Below, in pieces: positions 18,318-28,905 of a DNA stretch of 28,905 nt. A program made the position numbers and the translations under genes. The notes under the pieces were generated by a model. It ran no database searches and was not told where the DNA came from. It was given only the letters and a program-made list of their open reading frames with translations. The stretch covers positions 1-28,905 of the IMG/VR virus record IMGVR_UViG_3300015360_000151; one strand, written 5' to 3'. Position 1 is the stretch's first letter; each line of letters opens with the position of its first letter. Origin of the DNA: a virus.

Positions 18318-20621
18318 TCAGTCGCCAAAACTTTGGCGATGAAAACCTTGATCGCTTTTGGTTGTGTAAAATCCTACGGCCGGTTCAGTCGGTAGTTCGG
18401 GGATGACTGCGTTATTATAAACATAATTCATTGCGTCAATTAAGTGATCATTGCCGTCTTGCTCCCACTCATAAGACGACATTTCTTCTAGTAGCTGCGT
18501 GCAGTTCTTGGCGATCTTAAGCCGTCCTGTGCGAAGAGCGTTCACCAGGCGCAAGATGCGCGCTTGCTTATCGGCTTTGGCGGCGGGTTCAAGGGTCAGC
18601 CCTACCTCGCCGTATTCAGCTATGAGCTGCGGGTCTATGTCAGAGAAGTTTGAAATGGCAGGGTATGGCTCGCAGTTCTTAATTACGTCCGCGTGCTGTT
18701 TGATTAGCAACTCTGAGTGCTTGTACTCGTTATAAATGAGAAAGCATTTCTTTCGGCGGTTATACGCCATCCAAAGACACGCCGTTGGATCTGGCGAGTA
18801 CCCGTGGTCAACGCCCTTCCAATGGTAGGCGTGGTCAAGATCGGCTGGGTCCCAGCGGTCACAAGTGTAGTCTTCGACCGCAAGAGCAAACGCCATGCCT
18901 TCAAACACAATGTATTCGGCAAGGATTTCTTGGCGGTAAAGAGGGTCAAGCGGGCCGTCGTACTCTGATATTAGCTTGTCTCTGCCCTCAGGGCTTATAA
19001 ATGGGTTTTCAAATACCGTGCAGTGCGATGTGTAGAATTTAAGTTGATCGGCAAGCGCGCGCTTCTTTAACCGCCAAAAGTGATTTTTGCCCTTGGGGGT
19101 TGAACCGTAAATCAACTGCCCATTGAAGTCGGCAAGCTGCGGTACGAGCACGTCTTTGACAATTGTCGGGTCTCGAAAGAACGCGAACTCATCGGGCGCA
19201 ATCAACCTCTTGGCGTTACCGCGAAGCTTATCTTTACCGAGGTCCGCACCTTTTAACGATATCACCGCGCCGCTTGGCGTATGCTTCCACTCTAGGCGTG
19301 ATTCGTTTGACTTCCACTCACGCGCGCGGTCTTTCAACCGCTGATAGAACTTGTCCCACATAATTTCACGCGCCTGGCCCTGCGTTAGCGCGATATACAT
19401 GCAGTCTCTGCCATGGTCTTCGATATCCTCGATAAATGTTTCGGCGATAAATTCTGAATTATGGGTCACCAGGCCCGTTGCGGTCAGGTAAAGATGAGTG
19501 GGGCTGTCCACCTCTATGTCCCAGCATTTCTCAACTCGCTCATTCCTAAACGTAACGCCGACGTGGTCAACATTCCCGTTGTTGGCCTTAAGCCTGCCCC
19601 ATTCGCGGCAATATTTTCTCTTTGGATTTACTAGATAGGGGTTCAATTCTTTAAGAATGACCCTATTAAACAGAATGTTCTTCACGCCGATCCGATGAAT
19701 CGGGCCGTTTTTGTATCTTGGCCTGTCGTCTATGTCGGCTGTCGCCCTGCACTGCCAAAGGGCAAGAAGCGCGTACTGAAGCGCCTCGATGCAGGACTTT
19801 GACTGCATCGCAAGCCTTAGATTGATTTCCTTGCCGTTGAAGGTGACGCTGCCGTCTGTGTCTATGAGGCCAGCGACAAACTCAAGGAGCGACCGGCGGT
19901 CCCACGTCTTGATCACTTCTAGATCACAGAACTTTTCATGAGCAAGCTTCCCCTTGCACCATTCCTCATAGTGATTACAGTGAATCGGCTTTGTATGCTT
20001 CCCGCTCCCGGCCTCCGTACCAAGAGAGTAGGTGTAATTTTTACCTCCGTTTTTGAATAGCTTCAGTCCAATTATCTTTGCAATCTTATGGGGCGTGTGC
20101 GGAGATTCAGAAGAAATATACCATTTATTGCCCGCGGCGGTGCTGCATCCGTTGCCGAGCATCGCTCCGAGCACATAGGCGTGCGGTTCGTGAACCTTTC
20201 CGAGCGGGGCTTTGACCCAAAGGCGTTCGATGGCCAGTGCTTTATACCATTCCTTCGGCGCCCTAAGCTTCTTGAATCCGTGCTCCCGGTGAATGGTCAT
20301 CCAACGATGATCAATCGTAGCCGTCTCGTAAACGGTTCCGTTGTTACAGAGATCCACTACGCGCTTCTTGCCCTGGTATTTTACATGCTTTACGCGGATC
20401 GGTTCGCCACGTTCAGAATAGACAAGATCGCCTGGTTTCAGGTCTTCGATTCGCTTCGGTCCACATGGAGTTATTATCATGGAACCCTCTACCAGACACT
20501 TGCCGCTGCGCCTACCCCAATCAAGCACAACGTCTCGCCCAGACTTATAGGCAAGCCACGCGCGCTCTTGCTTGTCGTGAAAACGGTTAACGTAATATTC
20601 AAGCGGGCGCGTGAAGGGCAT
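18318..20621 (-). CDS. terL: Terminase large subunit interrupted by an intein
   Basis: 767 aa from the ATG at 20621, chosen because it overlaps the stop of the 24-aa ORF upstream (TAATG) and begins right before the conserved region. Removing the 347-aa intein leaves 420 aa, a normal TerL length. The ATPase part has Walker A GRRSGK|S (split by the intein), Walker B LIAPDEFAFF and the coupling motif YGSTPKG. The nuclease part has VDHGYSPDPTACLWM, SDIDPQLIAEYG and HLIDAMNYVYNN, whose Asp residues fit the RNase H-like active site. The enzyme pumps DNA into the prohead and cuts it. Protein splicing is needed to restore the ATP-binding loop. Upstream in-frame ATGs as far as 20750 overlap another gene and are less likely. 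Confidence 0.9.
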   Translation of the reverse strand: MPFTRPLEYYVNRFHDKQERAWLAYKSGRDVVLDWGRRSGKCLVEGSMIITPCGPKRIEDLKPGDLVYSERGEPIRVKHVKYQGKKRVVDLCNNGTVYETATIDHRWMTIHREHGFKKLRAPKEWYKALAIERLWVKAPLGKVHEPHAYVLGAMLGNGCSTAAGNKWYISSESPHTPHKIAKIIGLKLFKNGGKNYTYSLGTEAGSGKHTKPIHCNHYEEWCKGKLAHEKFCDLEVIKTWDRRSLLEFVAGLIDTDGSVTFNGKEINLRLAMQSKSCIEALQYALLALWQCRATADIDDRPRYKNGPIHRIGVKNILFNRVILKELNPYLVNPKRKYCREWGRLKANNGNVDHVGVTFRNERVEKCWDIEVDSPTHLYLTATGLVTHNSEFIAETFIEDIEDHGRDCMYIALTQGQAREIMWDKFYQRLKDRAREWKSNESRLEWKHTPSGAVISLKGADLGKDKLRGNAKRLIAPDEFAFFRDPTIVKDVLVPQLADFNGQLIYGSTPKGKNHFWRLKKRALADQLKFYTSHCTVFENPFISPEGRDKLISEYDGPLDPLYRQEILAEYIVFEGMAFALAVEDYTCDRWDPADLDHAYHWKGVDHGYSPDPTACLWMAYNRRKKCFLIYNEYKHSELLIKQHADVIKNCEPYPAISNFSDIDPQLIAEYGEVGLTLEPAAKADKQARILRLVNALRTGRLKIAKNCTQLLEEMSSYEWEQDGNDHLIDAMNYVYNNAVIPELPTEPAVGFYTTKSDQGFHRQSFGD
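19458..20498 (-). mobile_element. LAGLIDADG intein in terL
   Basis: 347 aa, starting at Cys (CLVEGSMIITPCGPKRIEDL, block A) and ending LTATGLVTHN followed by Ser as +1 residue. Block B is TIDHRWMTIH. The two homing-endonuclease motifs are HAYVLGAMLGNGCS (block C) and FVAGLIDTDGSV (block E); the second keeps the acidic residue of the active site, and the first has Asn at the matching place. Block F is EKCWDIEVDSPTHLYLTATG. Splicing residues (Cys1, His in TxxH, penultimate His, Asn, Ser+1) are all present, so splicing should work. The insertion point lies between Lys and Ser of the Walker A loop. Confidence 0.92.
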
Positions 20622-20695
20622 TATCTGGGGCCGCGCCCTGCGCCAACAATAAATAACAGAGCAAATAGAAACCCTGCGAGGCACGCGGTCATCAT
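20621..20695 (-). CDS. 24-aa hydrophobic micro-ORF between terminase-region genes
   Basis: It begins ATGATGACC, overlapping the stop of the 97-aa gene (ATGA), and ends TAA overlapping the terL ATG (TAATG). The product, starting MMTACLAGFLFALLFIVGAG, is essentially one membrane helix with a short basic tail. AAGGA stands three bases before the second ATG. Two exact overlaps make it likely to be translated, at least as a coupling peptide that carries ribosomes to terL. Whether the peptide has its own function is unknown. Confidence 0.5.
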   Translation of the reverse strand: MMTACLAGFLFALLFIVGAGRGPR

Positions 20696-20985
20696 TCCTT
20701 GTCTCGCTTTGCGGTCTGCTCTCGATATTGACGGTCGTAATCCAAAGCACTCATAATCTCGAAATGGATCATCTCGTTACCGAGCCTAATGGTTACCTCG
20801 CCTTCTTTTTTCAGGTGATAAACTTGCTCGCCGGTTAGGCCTGGAACATCGCACGCGGCCTTACCTGGCGGATCGGGATATCTGATTTGATCGCAGATGG
20901 GGGAGCCCACTTTAACGGGATTACCGTTTCCATCGATAAAGAACTTTTGCTTGATGCGCGTGAGAACAGAACCAATATGCGTCAT
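20692..20985 (-). CDS. 97-aa protein between small and large terminase, unknown
   Basis: The ATG overlaps the stop of the small terminase gene (ATGA). The protein has a KQKFFIDGNGNPVKVGSPIC segment, a Pro-rich middle (RYPDPPGKAACDVPGL) and a beta-like LGNEMIHFEIMS. The C terminus is charged. No family was recognised. Its place inside the packaging operon suggests a packaging accessory protein, by context only. Confidence 0.65.
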   Translation of the reverse strand: MTHIGSVLTRIKQKFFIDGNGNPVKVGSPICDQIRYPDPPGKAACDVPGLTGEQVYHLKKEGEVTIRLGNEMIHFEIMSALDYDRQYREQTAKRDKE

Positions 20986-25477: not shown

Positions 25478-25629
25478 GGAATGCCCATCAGTTCGCGAAT
25501 GGTTTCGTCTTGCTGCTTTACCTGAGCCGCGAGCAAAAACAGCTTGGCTTCAGACACCCTTAACGCGCGGTTTAATGTTTTGATCATATCTGCCAGATGC
25601 TCGGCGTGATTGTTTTCAATCGTGGTCAT
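25474..25629 (-). CDS. 51-aa coiled-coil protein between helicase and nuclease
   Basis: The product begins MTTIENNHAEHLADMIKTLN and is one long helix with heptad-like spacing, ending ETIRELMGIP. Its ATG overlaps the helicase stop (ATGA), and its TGA overlaps the nuclease start (ATGA). The two exact overlaps make it a real gene. It may be a small adaptor between the two enzymes; that is inference. Confidence 0.65.
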   Translation of the reverse strand: MTTIENNHAEHLADMIKTLNRALRVSEAKLFLLAAQVKQQDETIRELMGIP

Positions 25630-26576
25630 AGCATTTCTCTTTCGATGTAGCAGGTCCCGAAATTCTCAAACATGATCCGCCGCCCGACGTAGTTTCCTCG
25701 GCGCCTCAGTTTTGCAAACCTGAGTTCTCGAAAACGCTGCGAGGGGTACTGGGCCTGGTCCTCTTCTGCGGTGCGGTTAAACAGCAGCACGTTGTGTGCC
25801 TCTTGAACTGCGGTGCTCGAGCCTTTGATATCGAACTCTGATTCAACCCGCCCGTTTTCGGTCTTCTTTGGATGCATGACCATGATCAAGTGCATGTCGA
25901 TGCGTTTGCAAAACATGATCAGCTCGTGGACCGTCTTATCCATTTCCACTACCGCATTGCGTTCGGCAGTTACCTCCATAAAAAAGTTCAGATTATCCAG
26001 CATCGCAATCTGGCAGCCGTGCACGTCGTGGGCTGATTGCAGTTCGGCGATAAGCTGCTGACAAGAGATCCGGTTATCAAACAGTGACAGCATCAGCGTG
26101 TCTGTGTGCAACAGATGGTCGAAGTCGTGCTTGATTTGCGCAATGCGTTCAAAACTCAGTGACTCGCCCGTGTTGATGTCTTCGCTGAGCATTGCTGACA
26201 TAGTGCGCTTCACGAAATCGGTTGCGCCGGTTTCAACGCTTGCGACAAAGTGCTTTGTCTTCTGCATCAAGAGCTGAAAACTTAGGTTTGCTAAAAACGT
26301 GGTCTTGCCGGTTCCGGTCGCCCCACAGAGTATCGTAAATTCGCGCGCACGTAGGCCGCCAGTCGCTTTTGTGAAGTTCGGCCATAGTCTGACCGGGGTT
26401 GATGGATAAGGGCTCAGCAGCTCGCTGTGGGCCTCAAATGCGATATCTCGAATTGGACGCATGTGTCCGTGAACGCTTTCTGCTGCTAAGGGTTCTGGCT
26501 CTGGTGGCTCTGACACGACGCATCCCTGGCCCGCGAGCGTGTTGAGCGCGAAGTCCTCAAATGTTTTTTGCGGCAT
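25626..26576 (-). CDS. DnaB-like replicative helicase (RecA-type ATPase domain)
   Basis: 316 aa. Walker A is GATGTGKTT (residues 85-93), a Glu in ASVETGATD fits the catalytic Glu of DnaB-type proteins, and Walker B is IAMLDNLNFF (Asp 194). LIMVMHPKK and DIKGSSTAVQEAHNVLLFNR with KLRRRGNYVG match the H3/H4-type motifs of hexameric DnaB/gp4 helicases. There is no room for a full DnaB N-terminal domain or a primase domain; the first 60 residues are Pro/Glu-rich. It unwinds DNA at the fork. The gene overlaps the upstream replication gene by 20 bp. Confidence 0.85.
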   Translation of the reverse strand: MPQKTFEDFALNTLAGQGCVVSEPPEPEPLAAESVHGHMRPIRDIAFEAHSELLSPYPSTPVRLWPNFTKATGGLRAREFTILCGATGTGKTTFLANLSFQLLMQKTKHFVASVETGATDFVKRTMSAMLSEDINTGESLSFERIAQIKHDFDHLLHTDTLMLSLFDNRISCQQLIAELQSAHDVHGCQIAMLDNLNFFMEVTAERNAVVEMDKTVHELIMFCKRIDMHLIMVMHPKKTENGRVESEFDIKGSSTAVQEAHNVLLFNRTAEEDQAQYPSQRFRELRFAKLRRRGNYVGRRIMFENFGTCYIEREML

Positions 26577-27252
26577 TGATCATCTCGTCTCTTTTGCGGC
26601 GGAACTCTTCGACGTGGGTTTGGTCTGCCTTGAACGCATCCAGTTCGGGCTGCGGCAGCCCTTCGTCTGCGTAGTCGGTCCATCGGCCCATGAAAGTTCC
26701 GAATTGGAGCGTGTACTTTTTCTCGGTCTTATCTTTGCGACACATGGCGGCGTATTTGTCGACCGCTTTTGAAAGGCGATCGAAGTCGGCCTGCGAGAGG
26801 ATTTGGTTTCCGCAGATTTTCATCCCCAGGGTCTTTCCCTCCTTGCGGGGGTATTTTTTGTAGAGAGTTTCAAAATCAAAATCATGTTCTGTCTGTCTGT
26901 CTGTCTGTCTGTCTGTAGCCGCGGATTCCAGGCAATGCCTGTCATTGCCTGGCAATTCCCGCGGATTCCAGGCAATCAGATTTGAGTTCGCCAACTCCGC
27001 TATATCTTTGTCGATTTTGTCAGCGCTCTTTTTACGCAGCAAGACAAGGTAATCTTGACGCAACGCAAACTCCCCGCCGCTGCATTTTGATGCCTCGCAA
27101 AGCAAAAACACGAACGTGAGTTGTGCTGATTCGCTCAACCCAAATACCGATTGATCGAAGAAAAAGCTGTTCTGAAAGCGAAACCAAACGAAATTACCGC
27201 GATCAGCCCGCTCGTTATATTTATCCCAGTTAAGAACCTTAATCGTGTACAT
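26557..27252 (-). CDS. Replication organiser / helicase-loader-like protein with repeat-encoded linker
   Basis: 231 aa. The N-terminal half looks like a winged-helix domain (MYTIKVLNWDKYNERADRGN, SESAQLTFVFLLCEASKC, VLLRKKSADKIDKDIAELAN). The C-terminal half has YKKYPRKEGK, then RLSKAVDKYAAMC and LQFGTFMGRWTDYADEGLPQ, the pattern found in phage replication organisers and DnaD-like loaders. Between them residues about 93-122 are encoded by short DNA repeats (TDRQTDRQTE). Translation appears to start at the ATG after a run of G (GGGGCGGGG). The gene is followed directly by the helicase gene, which it probably loads at the origin. Confidence 0.7.
   Translation of the reverse strand: MYTIKVLNWDKYNERADRGNFVWFRFQNSFFFDQSVFGLSESAQLTFVFLLCEASKCSGGEFALRQDYLVLLRKKSADKIDKDIAELANSNLIAWNPRELPGNDRHCLESAATDRQTDRQTEHDFDFETLYKKYPRKEGKTLGMKICGNQILSQADFDRLSKAVDKYAAMCRKDKTEKKYTLQFGTFMGRWTDYADEGLPQPELDAFKADQTHVEEFRRKRDEMINAAKNI
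26889..26916. repeat. Tetranucleotide tract, seven copies of CTGT
   Basis: 28 bases of pure CTGT repeat (ACAG on the coding strand) lie inside the replication organiser gene and encode TDRQTDRQT. Gain or loss of one unit would shift the reading frame. Confidence 0.95.
26919..26976. repeat. 18-bp direct repeat with internal inverted copy
   Basis: CCGCGGATTCCAGGCAAT occurs at 26919-26936 and again at 26959-26976. An inverted copy of its last nine bases, ATTGCCTGG, stands at 26944-26952, so a perfect 9-bp hairpin with a 7-base loop forms at 26928-26952. The two direct copies are read in different frames (IAWNPR and HCLESAA) within the same protein. Confidence 0.95.
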
Positions 27253-27357: not shown

Positions 27358-27645
27358 TCATTCTAAAACTCCGCTGCCGGAGCCGGAGCAGGAGCCGTAG
27401 CCGAATCCGTAGCCGATGCCACCGCCGATGCCTCCGCCGAATCCACCACCAAATCCGCCGCTGCCGCCGATGCCGCCTCCACCACCGAATCCATCACCAT
27501 CGCCGCCTCCGGAGCCGACGCCATCACCATCACCAATTCTGCCTATGCCTCTGCCGTCGCCGCAACCAAAACCATTGCATGTGTTGAATCCGTCGCCGAA
27601 TCCGCCGCCGAATCCGCTGCCGCCACCCTCTATTGCGCCGGTCAT
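27358..27645 (-). CDS. Gly-X repeat protein 1
   Basis: 95 aa. It begins MTGAIEGGG and ends GSGSGVLE. Between them Gly is found at nearly every second residue, alternating with Phe, Ile, Asp, Tyr, Ser and Gly (FGGGFGGGIGGGIGYGFGYG); an NTCNGFGCGDG segment breaks the pattern. Gly codons vary in the third base (GGT, GGC, GGA), which argues for selection on this frame. The ATG overlaps the stop of the Gly-X gene upstream (ATGA). There is no signal peptide. The function is unknown; the sequence looks disordered or polyglycine-helix-like. Confidence 0.65.
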   Translation of the reverse strand: MTGAIEGGGSGFGGGFGDGFNTCNGFGCGDGRGIGRIGDGDGVGSGGGDGDGFGGGGGIGGSGGFGGGFGGGIGGGIGYGFGYGSCSGSGSGVLE

Positions 27646-27818
27646 TCTAAAACTCCGCTGCCGGAGCCGGAGCCGTAGCCGTAGCCGAATCCGCTGCCGG
27701 AGCCGGAGCAGGCGCCGGAGCCGGAGCAGGCGCCGTAGCCGTCGCCGTAGCCGGAGCCGGCTCCGGAGCCGCTGCCGGAGCAGGAGTAGATGCCGCCACC
27801 CTCTATTACGCCATTCAT
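27642..27818 (-). CDS. Gly-X repeat protein 2
   Basis: 58 aa. It begins MNGVIEGGGIYSCSG and ends SGSGSGVLE. The body is alternating Gly with Ser, Tyr, Asp, Ala or Phe, with Cys in YGACSGSGACSG. Its ATG overlaps the stop of Gly-X protein 3, and its TGA overlaps the start of protein 1. The opposite strand cannot keep a constant kind of product over this block, since its frame changes character at each boundary. The function is unknown. Confidence 0.6.
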   Translation of the reverse strand: MNGVIEGGGIYSCSGSGSGAGSGYGDGYGACSGSGACSGSGSGFGYGYGSGSGSGVLE

Positions 27819-27961
27819 TCTAAAACTCCGCTGCCGTAGCCGGCTACGGAGCCGGCGCCGAATCCGAATCCGCTGCCGGAGCCGCTGCCGTCGCCGGAGC
27901 CAACGCCGTCGCCGGAGCAGGAGTAGGAGTAGGTGCCGCTGCCGTCTATTACGCCATTCAT
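27815..27961 (-). CDS. Gly-X repeat protein 3
   Basis: 48 aa. It begins MNGVIDGSGTYSYSCSGDG and ends GYGSGVLE, so both ends match the other Gly-X proteins. The ATG overlaps the stop of the 145-aa HicB-like gene (ATGA). This links the Gly-X series to that gene by translation. The function is unknown. Confidence 0.6.
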   Translation of the reverse strand: MNGVIDGSGTYSYSCSGDGVGSGDGSGSGSGFGFGAGSVAGYGSGVLE

Positions 27962-28395
27962 TCTAGTTTCCGCTCAAGAGCGTCAGCCCATTGACCACCG
28001 CCTGCGTCTCTAAATTCGCGTAGCGTCATCGTACAAGTATCATCAAGCCCACGCTCGTCTAGCCACGCCCTTACGCCGCTACGACACGCCCGTGTTAGTC
28101 GTTTGAACAGACTGACTGAAAACCGAAAATGTTCAGCCCGATATTCCAACTTTTCTTCGGCTGTTAGCGGCTGGGATTGCCCCAACTTTTCGCGGGCAGC
28201 ATCGATAGCCTCGACCACGCTATCGCCGTGGGCACATGCTGGTACTCCGGGCAGCTCCACAAAGTAAGATTTTTTTCCTGCCGCATCATAGAGTATTTCG
28301 ACAATCTCTCCGCCTGGTGCTGAGAAATTTTCGCCCTCGGTCCACGAATTTAAACCATCGCGATATGCGGGAATGCGATTTTTATTTGCGGTCAT
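27958..28395 (-). CDS. 145-aa protein with HicB-like motif
   Basis: The start is the ATG at 28395, overlapping the stop of the 111-aa gene (ATGA). Residues about 30-75 contain YFVELPGVPACAHGDSVVEA then IDAAREKLG, which follows the order of HicB-type domains (V-x-L-P-G...H-G-D-S/T-x-x-E-A...A-R-E). The C-terminal half is helical and charged (EYRAEHFRFSVSLFKRLTRA, ARGLDDTC-like end). No HicA partner is visible. It is coupled to the Gly-X ORFs downstream. Confidence 0.65.
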   Translation of the reverse strand: MTANKNRIPAYRDGLNSWTEGENFSAPGGEIVEILYDAAGKKSYFVELPGVPACAHGDSVVEAIDAAREKLGQSQPLTAEEKLEYRAEHFRFSVSLFKRLTRACRSGVRAWLDERGLDDTCTMTLREFRDAGGGQWADALERKLE

Positions 28396-28727
28396 TTTAT
28401 AGGCCCGTAGTTCAGCACTGACTGCCACGCGCCATCCGTCATTTCAGCGATCTCTAGCCCGGGCGGGTTTACGATCGTGACAGCCGGCAACACAGCCCCG
28501 ATGCTGTGTTCTGCGTCAGGGTTCAAACCGTTTGCCGCAACGTCGGAAATCGAACCAGTGCTATCTCTAGTGTACACGCGCCACAGCCTGCGAGCTGACT
28601 TTAACTGGATCGTGCTCGTCATAAAATCAACCGCGACAACAATCCCGGCGTGTACCCCGGCTACGTTTGCGCGAACAATTACAGATTTACCTACGATGCT
28701 GTCTTGCAGACTATTTTTAGTTTCCAT
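28392..28727 (-). CDS. 111-aa protein resembling DUF6948
   Basis: GGAGG stands about nine bases before the ATG. The sequence has GKSVIVRANVAGVHAGIVVA, then STIQLKSARRLWRVY, ISDVAANGL and a C-terminal beta part (GAVLPAVTIVNPPGLEIAEM). I associate the order 'VIVR-x-x-x-AGVH-x-G...L-x-x-ARR-x-W' with the phage family DUF6948, whose function is not known. The match is by memory of the family pattern. It is the first gene of a coupled series that includes the Gly-X ORFs. Confidence 0.65.
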   Translation of the reverse strand: METKNSLQDSIVGKSVIVRANVAGVHAGIVVAVDFMTSTIQLKSARRLWRVYTRDSTGSISDVAANGLNPDAEHSIGAVLPAVTIVNPPGLEIAEMTDGAWQSVLNYGPIK

Positions 28728-28786
28728 TAGTGACCGCCTCCTTTGACGGTTTTTGTTTGTTATTCATTTCGGTCCATGTGCCTGGG

Positions 28787-28905
28787 TCATTCTAAAACTC
28801 CGCTGCCGTAGCCGTAGCCGGAGCCGGAGCCGGAGCCGAATCCGTAGCCGGAGCCGGAGCCGGCTCCGGAGCCGCTGCCGGAGCCGGAGCCGTAGCCGGA
28901 GCCGG
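28787..28905 (-). CDS. Gly-X repeat protein 4 (5' end beyond window)
   Basis: The C-terminal 38 codons are visible. They encode alternating Gly with Ser, Tyr, Phe and Ala, ending GYGYGSGVLE, the same end as the three other Gly-X proteins. The ATG after it (ATGA overlap) opens only an 8-codon frame starting MTQ. It lies upstream of the DUF6948-like gene, so the Gly-X genes flank that gene on both sides. Confidence 0.55.
   Translation of the reverse strand, partial: GSGYGSGSGSGSGAGSGSGYGFGSGSGSGYGYGSGVLE

Follow-up and report, generated by a model that had tools for sequence, protein, structure and literature searches.

What are the short genes with a glycine at every second residue that crowd one end of a phage genome fragment, are they translated, and how do they relate to the genes among which they lie? 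The window analysed here is the whole 28,905-base phage fragment, the end of which falls inside one such gene, designated Gly-X gene A. In the order of minus-strand transcription, the cut gene A is followed by a DUF6948 gene, a gene of 145 amino acids and Gly-X genes B2, B1 and C. The features of this region are as follows.

28787–28903, minus strand: Gly-X gene A, partial, its 5' end lying past the contig end; the complete counterpart is L009:1719–1901
28392–28727, minus strand: DUF6948 gene coding for 111 aa with a predicted Sm/LSm fold; PF22253 match; AGGAGG-type ribosome-binding site upstream
27958–28395, minus strand: free-standing C1-domain gene, 145 aa; its start codon, ATG at 28395, shares an ATGA with the DUF6948 stop
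27815–27961, minus strand: Gly-X gene B2 of 48 aa, overlapping the C1 gene at ATGA
27642–27818, minus strand: Gly-X gene B1 of 58 aa, overlapping B2 at ATGA
27358–27645, minus strand: Gly-X gene C of 95 aa, overlapping B1 at ATGA
27826–27829, minus strand: GGAG ribosome-binding site of B1 within the GVLE end of B2, from the sequence
27653–27656, minus strand: GGAG ribosome-binding site of C within the GVLE end of B1, from the sequence
26557–27252, minus strand: neighbouring gene for a replication-initiation-like protein (PHROG 270, E 4.5e-8)
25626–26576, minus strand: neighbouring gene for a DnaB-like helicase (Pfam DnaB_C, E 5e-14; PHROG 239, E 7e-35)

Four ATGA overlaps link the DUF6948 gene, the C1 gene, B2, B1 and C in a chain, confirming the initial annotation, which had placed Gly-X genes in a row, coupled to the middle gene and through it to DUF6948. 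The cassette contains no Rfam element and no promoter-like or terminator-like site. The three complete Gly-X genes start with MTGAIEG, MNGVIEG and MNGVIDG, and all four end in SGVLE. The GVLE end is coded GGA GTT TTA GAA TGA, in which GGAG sits 7 nt upstream of the next ATG. The GVLE codons thus contain the ribosome-binding site of the next gene, a DNA-level reason for the common gene ends, which we read from the sequence as translation signals at least partly. Since the C-terminus doubles as the next gene's ribosome-binding site, a duplicated unit would be a ready-made translated copy. A search with the gene ends of the window as an exact DNA pattern found no match.

Runs of (GX)6 number 18 in the cassette and 0 in the rest of the window, and none arose in 200 base shuffles of the window. 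The genes described as having glycine at every second residue are real (three complete, one partial), and the alternation is strict only in part: at the best parity glycine fills 95% of positions in the partial gene A, 76% and 71% in the two B genes and 60% in the 95-aa gene C, whose X positions also take G, I, F and V. The proline frame of the plus strand had been said to be broken by TAG; this holds in the Tyr-rich tracts, but a 135-aa plus-strand reading frame at 27416–27823 stays open, so that the broken proline frame alone is a weak argument for coding.

A close relative, locus L009, has a DUF6948 protein 98% identical to that of the window and the order A, DUF6948, 145-aa gene, single B, C, versus two B copies in the window. 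The gene C proteins are identical; the A and B tracts differ strongly between the two loci while their flanks are near-identical. In L009, gene A has an unusual Val at X, and the contig end (L009:1–120) carries GGC-GTN hexamers on the strand opposite the module genes, which may be an inverted copy, a Thr-Pro coding repeat or an assembly end artefact.

Other features of the window were noted by the way. A terminase-like large reading frame (18318–20750, minus strand) has, by eye, an apparent intein at the Walker A motif, with ...GRRSGK preceding CLVEGSMIITPCGPKRIEDLKPGDLVYSE... at one junction and ...LYLTATGLVTHN preceding SEFIAETF at the other. The contig start (1–678, plus strand) holds a partial TnpB/OrfB-like transposase, recognized by eye (CSACG...CTTCGSGTHADINAARVI), and a (TGTC)n tetranucleotide repeat at 26880–26920, within the replication-initiation-like gene, reads TDRQTDRQTE.

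The gene upstream of the 145-aa gene had been called DUF6948-like, correctly, as it matches Pfam PF22253 with E 8.4e-11 and 42.3 bits against a curated cut-off of 27. A scan of IMG/VR for the Gly-X DNA pattern found at least 120 loci, 90 of them evaluable, and among the matches listed a gene of the DUF6948 superfamily adjoins the Gly-X tract in 78 of these 90. This first set was selected by Gly-X, so that a reverse test starting from DUF6948 was needed. In the reverse scan of IMG/VR and GTDB genomes, about 66 of 70 distinct DUF6948 loci among the matches listed, including Neisseria gonorrhoeae prophages, have Gly-X directly downstream. The exceptions are L145, which lies at a contig end, L208, where a GGG-rich tract was masked, L216, with none, and L218, with a short degenerate tract only. 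Profiles built from canonical DUF6948 and from shorter 'WGTTKGLGEL' proteins retrieved 113 and 111 reading frames with 111 in common; the two seeds thus converge on one DUF6948 superfamily. A Gly-X tract lies within 500 nt of 110 of the 113 superfamily reading frames, in a set selected by Gly-X.

In an annotated phage collection DUF6948 occurs in 16 records, and all of those read, namely the 16 less a duplicate record of Iodobacter phage PhiPLPE, have the pair, with Gly-X on one or the other side of DUF6948. DNA similarity to the window cassette was found in 98 phage records, the genera of which we compared with the results of the DUF6948-superfamily searches; at genus level, only the three Xanthomonas filamentous phages fall in genera that those searches missed. 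DUF6948 was found in 0 of 14 control genomes and, within the family of the gonococcus, in 2 of 83, a sparseness as expected for prophage genes. Two complete N. gonorrhoeae records of a plasmid collection bear three copies each; these 2.17-Mb records (NZ_CP119142.1 and NZ_CP119140.1), listed as plasmids, are evidently chromosomes. We define the module as Gly-X beside DUF6948 and translationally coupled to it; the window has this arrangement, with the coupling running through the interposed C1 gene. Its anatomy, a DUF6948 gene coupled to coding Gly-X genes with or without C1, can be read from the sequences with near certainty, and by the same comparisons the module is widespread among phages, the window cassette being one copy of it and no local curiosity. 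The open-licence literature that was searched contained no description of the function, fold or partner of DUF6948, of a phage Sm-like low-complexity system or of gonococcal glycine-rich prophage genes, and with respect to that literature the module is apparently new to description.

Gly-X genes are easily missed. That of Iodobacter phage PhiPLPE (L006, 3499–3744) was left unannotated, that of Chlorobiaceae phage CV-1-33 (L132, 1836–2102) was annotated in the wrong frame (gene 25), and one spring-phage homologue is annotated 'lamprin'. Some loci hold further variants. Five tandem Gly-X genes at L041:1659–2971 have the common start MGLKAFLKFG and the common end GEPNLTSAGATVVEE, an independent expansion like the window's; at a contig end, L036:1–962 has at least five consecutive Gly-rich, Gly-X-like reading frames with broader X usage. 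A second C-terminal domain (~116 aa, end GALEREILGE) is fused to Gly-X tracts in four loci (L043:392–742, L064:13010–13360, L117:11162–11512 and L118:1205–1546), and gave no Pfam or PHROG match in the three scanned (L043, L064 and L117).

The view that the tracts are a coding, expanding family tied to DUF6948 was upheld by tests of frame, start, indels and codons. Among 155 non-redundant loci, from which identical loci only had been removed, the Gly-X frame differs from the DUF6948 frame in 151; the Gly-X start precedes, and so overlaps, the DUF6948 stop in 138, and lies at most 20 nt past it in 13 more. The comparison of synonymous and non-synonymous change that had been proposed favours coding as well. 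In 47 tracts found without any Gly-X bias, glycine positions show 17 deviations at codon positions 1 and 2, which are non-synonymous, against 50 at position 3, where a ratio of about 2:1 is to be expected of unconstrained DNA; this argues that glycine is kept at the protein level. X is Y, S, D or N at more than 90% of positions, with a third base that is nearly always a pyrimidine, so that Tyr codons are kept from turning into stops. K and R are absent from the tracts. In the unbiased tract set GGG makes up about 2.5% of Gly codons, and a G-quadruplex role was rejected on account of this rarity. Gly codon choice does not follow the GC3 of the neighbouring DUF6948 gene.

Relatives differ by indels whose lengths are nearly always divisible by six. 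Locus lengths in Rheinheimera Barba phages, taken from 60 of 115 matching genomes, are 745, 751, 775 and 787, i.e. steps of 6, and five Rheinheimera phage alleles read intact. Eight Pectobacterium-type phages have Gly-X genes of 162–270 nt with the constant start MSKLIKPE and a mostly constant end. Of about 17 distinct Neisseria alleles nearly all stay in frame through hexamer indels; L191 reads into an assembly N. Relatives with a broken frame and a surviving repeat had been named as the finding that would speak against coding; the frame is intact almost everywhere, the exception being Neisseria allele L181, in which a stop lies inside the tract and the repeat goes on beyond it. Between relatives the tract sequences diverge while their neighbours remain 92–100% identical.

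The middle gene had been described as HicB-like. It matches no Pfam family at E ≤ 1 (27958–28428), and homology identifies it instead as a C1-domain gene. C1 is our name for a ~155-aa domain at the C-terminus of many Gly-X proteins; most Gly-X proteins are without it. The 145-aa gene matches the C1 domain of a Gly-X protein by blastp (E 3e-8) and by hhalign (probability 97.3%, E 2e-11), and by these alignments is a free-standing copy of the domain elsewhere fused C-terminally to Gly-X tracts. Most relatives that have C1 carry it fused, whereas it is a separate gene in the window. Of the 80 loci listed by a C1 scan, nearly all have the domain behind a Gly-X tract, and those with enough DNA usually have DUF6948 upstream; a Monoglobus plasmid has the full pair of DUF6948 and Gly-X-C1. 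Among 296 Bacteroidota genomes there was one true C1 match and a spurious match to GlmS.

C1 is also found behind other repeats: leucine-rich-like ones in Tetrasphaera phage TJE1 (L310), BspA-type LRR_5 (Pfam E 9e-9) in Riemerella phage CRP6, and decapeptide (pentapeptide-type) repeats in Dulem virus 31. The lead to these proteins came from a C1-like query sequence, and HMM E-values for C1 in them run from 2e-10 to 7e-21. The Gly-X tract thus takes the place of other repeat scaffolds. No DUF6948 gene was found beside C1 of the LRR and pentapeptide-type proteins in the stretch searched (L311–L313, with longer context). One Gly-X-C1 protein bears an N-terminal DUF7666 (E 2.6e-27). For a structural model of C1 (pLDDT 79, pTM 0.60) Foldseek finds nothing confident in the PDB, the best E being 0.67; VIA gives weak dsRBD-type fold matches for residues 27–75 (Z ~4), which are not evidence by themselves.

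The AF2 model of DUF6948 (104 sequences; pLDDT 88, pTM 0.82) runs in the order helix, five strands, terminal helix. Its best 50 Foldseek matches in the PDB (E 1.7e-3 to 1.6e-2, prob 0.98–1.00) consist almost entirely of Sm/LSm chains or of spliceosome/snRNP entries containing them, the LSm-like subunit of NatC included. VIA-align likewise places Sm/LSm proteins at the top, with Z up to 9.1, and 129 chains reach Z ≥ 8. A search of BFVD puts DUF6948 proteins and their Rheinheimera phage counterpart at the top, in support of the superfamily. DUF6948 is thus predicted, from the model, to adopt an Sm/LSm fold. A sequence profile search of the PDB does not reach Sm proteins, weak Pfam matches to Sm-type domains were seen (LSM14, E 0.17; SM-ATX, E 0.24), and there is no evident conservation of the canonical Sm1/Sm2 residues that contact RNA. 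Given this lack of sequence-level reach, RNA binding by DUF6948 is suggested by the fold; Sm-like barrels can be without RNA binding.

The module neighbours Sak4-like annealing proteins, SSB, DnaB-like helicase, HNH endonucleases and DNA methyltransferases, with Erf, RecE/Bet or exonucleases nearby in several isolates; in Pectobacterium-type phages the pair adjoins tail genes. Apart from these last, the setting is mostly early, of replication and recombination, and not structural. PADLOC, which barely covers anti-defence families, gave no match for the four window proteins scanned.

We infer from these observations that DUF6948 binds nucleic acid, that Gly-X proteins assemble multivalently and that the two act together in the cell. 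The module would be intracellular and made early, next to replication and recombination genes. Its Sm-fold DUF6948 protein, which would probably form a ring, would bind RNA or single-stranded nucleic acid. As its multivalent low-complexity partner, with Tyr as stickers and Gly, Ser, Asp and Asn as spacers, the Gly-X protein would cluster the Sm-fold protein into an assembly or condensate that may protect phage nucleic acid or sequester a host factor. Y, S, D and N, the residues at X, are the composition of known Tyr-based low-complexity domains. We favour this mechanism over its rivals, tentatively, as a plausible reading that may well be wrong.

The main rival, possible though on the doubtful side, is that Gly-X serves as a fast-changing scaffold or decoy for binding, flexible or rigid, like the other C1-bearing repeats. 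Its target in the host would be variable (a defence protein, for example), rapid tract change would reflect an arms race, and DUF6948 would be a partner or regulator. The succession of Gly-X, LRR-like, LRR_5 and decapeptide repeats in front of C1, the DUF7666 fusion and the divergence of tracts between conserved neighbours all speak for it; yet C1 is absent from most Gly-X proteins, a near-binary alphabet with few hydrophobics besides Tyr makes specific binding hard, and the PADLOC scan, with its scant cover of anti-defence families, was empty. The occurrence of C1 behind LRR and pentapeptide-like repeats without DUF6948 nearby fits a scaffold as well as a condensate. That the proteins are silk-like exported or virion fibres or adhesins is improbable: the alternation resembles fibroin and the Pectobacterium-type pair lies near tail genes, but no export signal was noticed in those N-termini that were read by eye and most contexts are those of replication and recombination (Sak4, SSB, Erf, RecE/Bet, DnaB, methyltransferases), so the adhesin suggested by the initial annotation finds no support.

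That function resides in the hexamer DNA itself, as a G-quadruplex, recombination or packaging signal, with an incidental reading frame, is very improbable. The near-uniform GGC-NNY hexamers, a Gly codon choice independent of neighbouring GC3 and the gene-A-like hexamers on the opposite strand of L009 would agree with such an element; it is already largely refuted by the overlapping starts and choice of frame, indel steps of 6, glycine kept at the protein level, the preference for Tyr, Ser, Asp and Asn at X, the scarcity of GGG and the in-frame fusion of C1 behind the tract. A toxin-antitoxin-like cassette with a HicB-type antitoxin hardly deserves consideration. The first part of C1 is beta-rich and then helical, a HicB-like outline, but no HicB family is matched, the neighbours are DUF6948 and Gly-X genes with no HicA or toxin partner, and the usual place of C1 is at the C-terminus of repeat proteins.

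If the assembly of Sm-fold and low-complexity proteins is taken further, tailed phages and prophages would have a two- or three-gene system in which an Sm-fold protein and a coupled Tyr/Gly protein form nucleic-acid-containing condensates in the infected bacterium. We regard this as rather unlikely as it stands; if true, it would be a viral, prokaryotic counterpart of LSm/low-complexity granules. The question raised is whether phages build Sm-based low-complexity assemblies. DUF6948 and Gly-X are among the tightest gene partnerships in this analysis, hidden by low-complexity filters and wrong-frame gene calls, and the reported hosts of module phages and prophages include Pseudomonadota, Bacteroidota, Chlorobi and Bacillota. 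DUF6948 gains a predicted fold, a partner and a testable role, and Gly-X offers a natural system in which a near-binary sequence is under selection while its length and order shift quickly.

Among known systems, silk fibroin, lamprin and sulphur globule proteins have Gly-alternating low complexity like Gly-X; the likeness is of composition only, Gly-X being Asp/Asn-rich and without shown homology to them. Phage LRR, pentapeptide-type and DUF7666 repeat proteins have C1 or DUF7666 in common with Gly-X proteins, but the type of repeat differs and DUF6948 is not beside three of them (L311–L313). Eukaryotic Tyr/Gly/Ser low-complexity domains (FUS, hnRNP A, Lsm4 tails) also set Tyr spaced by Gly, Ser, Asn or Asp beside an RNA-binding-type domain, an analogy of composition; in contrast to them, the phage module has strict Gly alternation, a separate coupled gene and no homology. 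With Sm, LSm and Hfq proteins DUF6948 shares the predicted fold and the order of elements (helix, five strands), and differs in having an extra helix between strands 3 and 4, no sequence match and no evident RNA-contact motifs. The upstream gene of the window is a member, above cut-off, of DUF6948 (PF22253) itself; to the family as known, the present analysis adds a model-predicted Sm fold, a near-constant partner in Gly-X and a sister subfamily.
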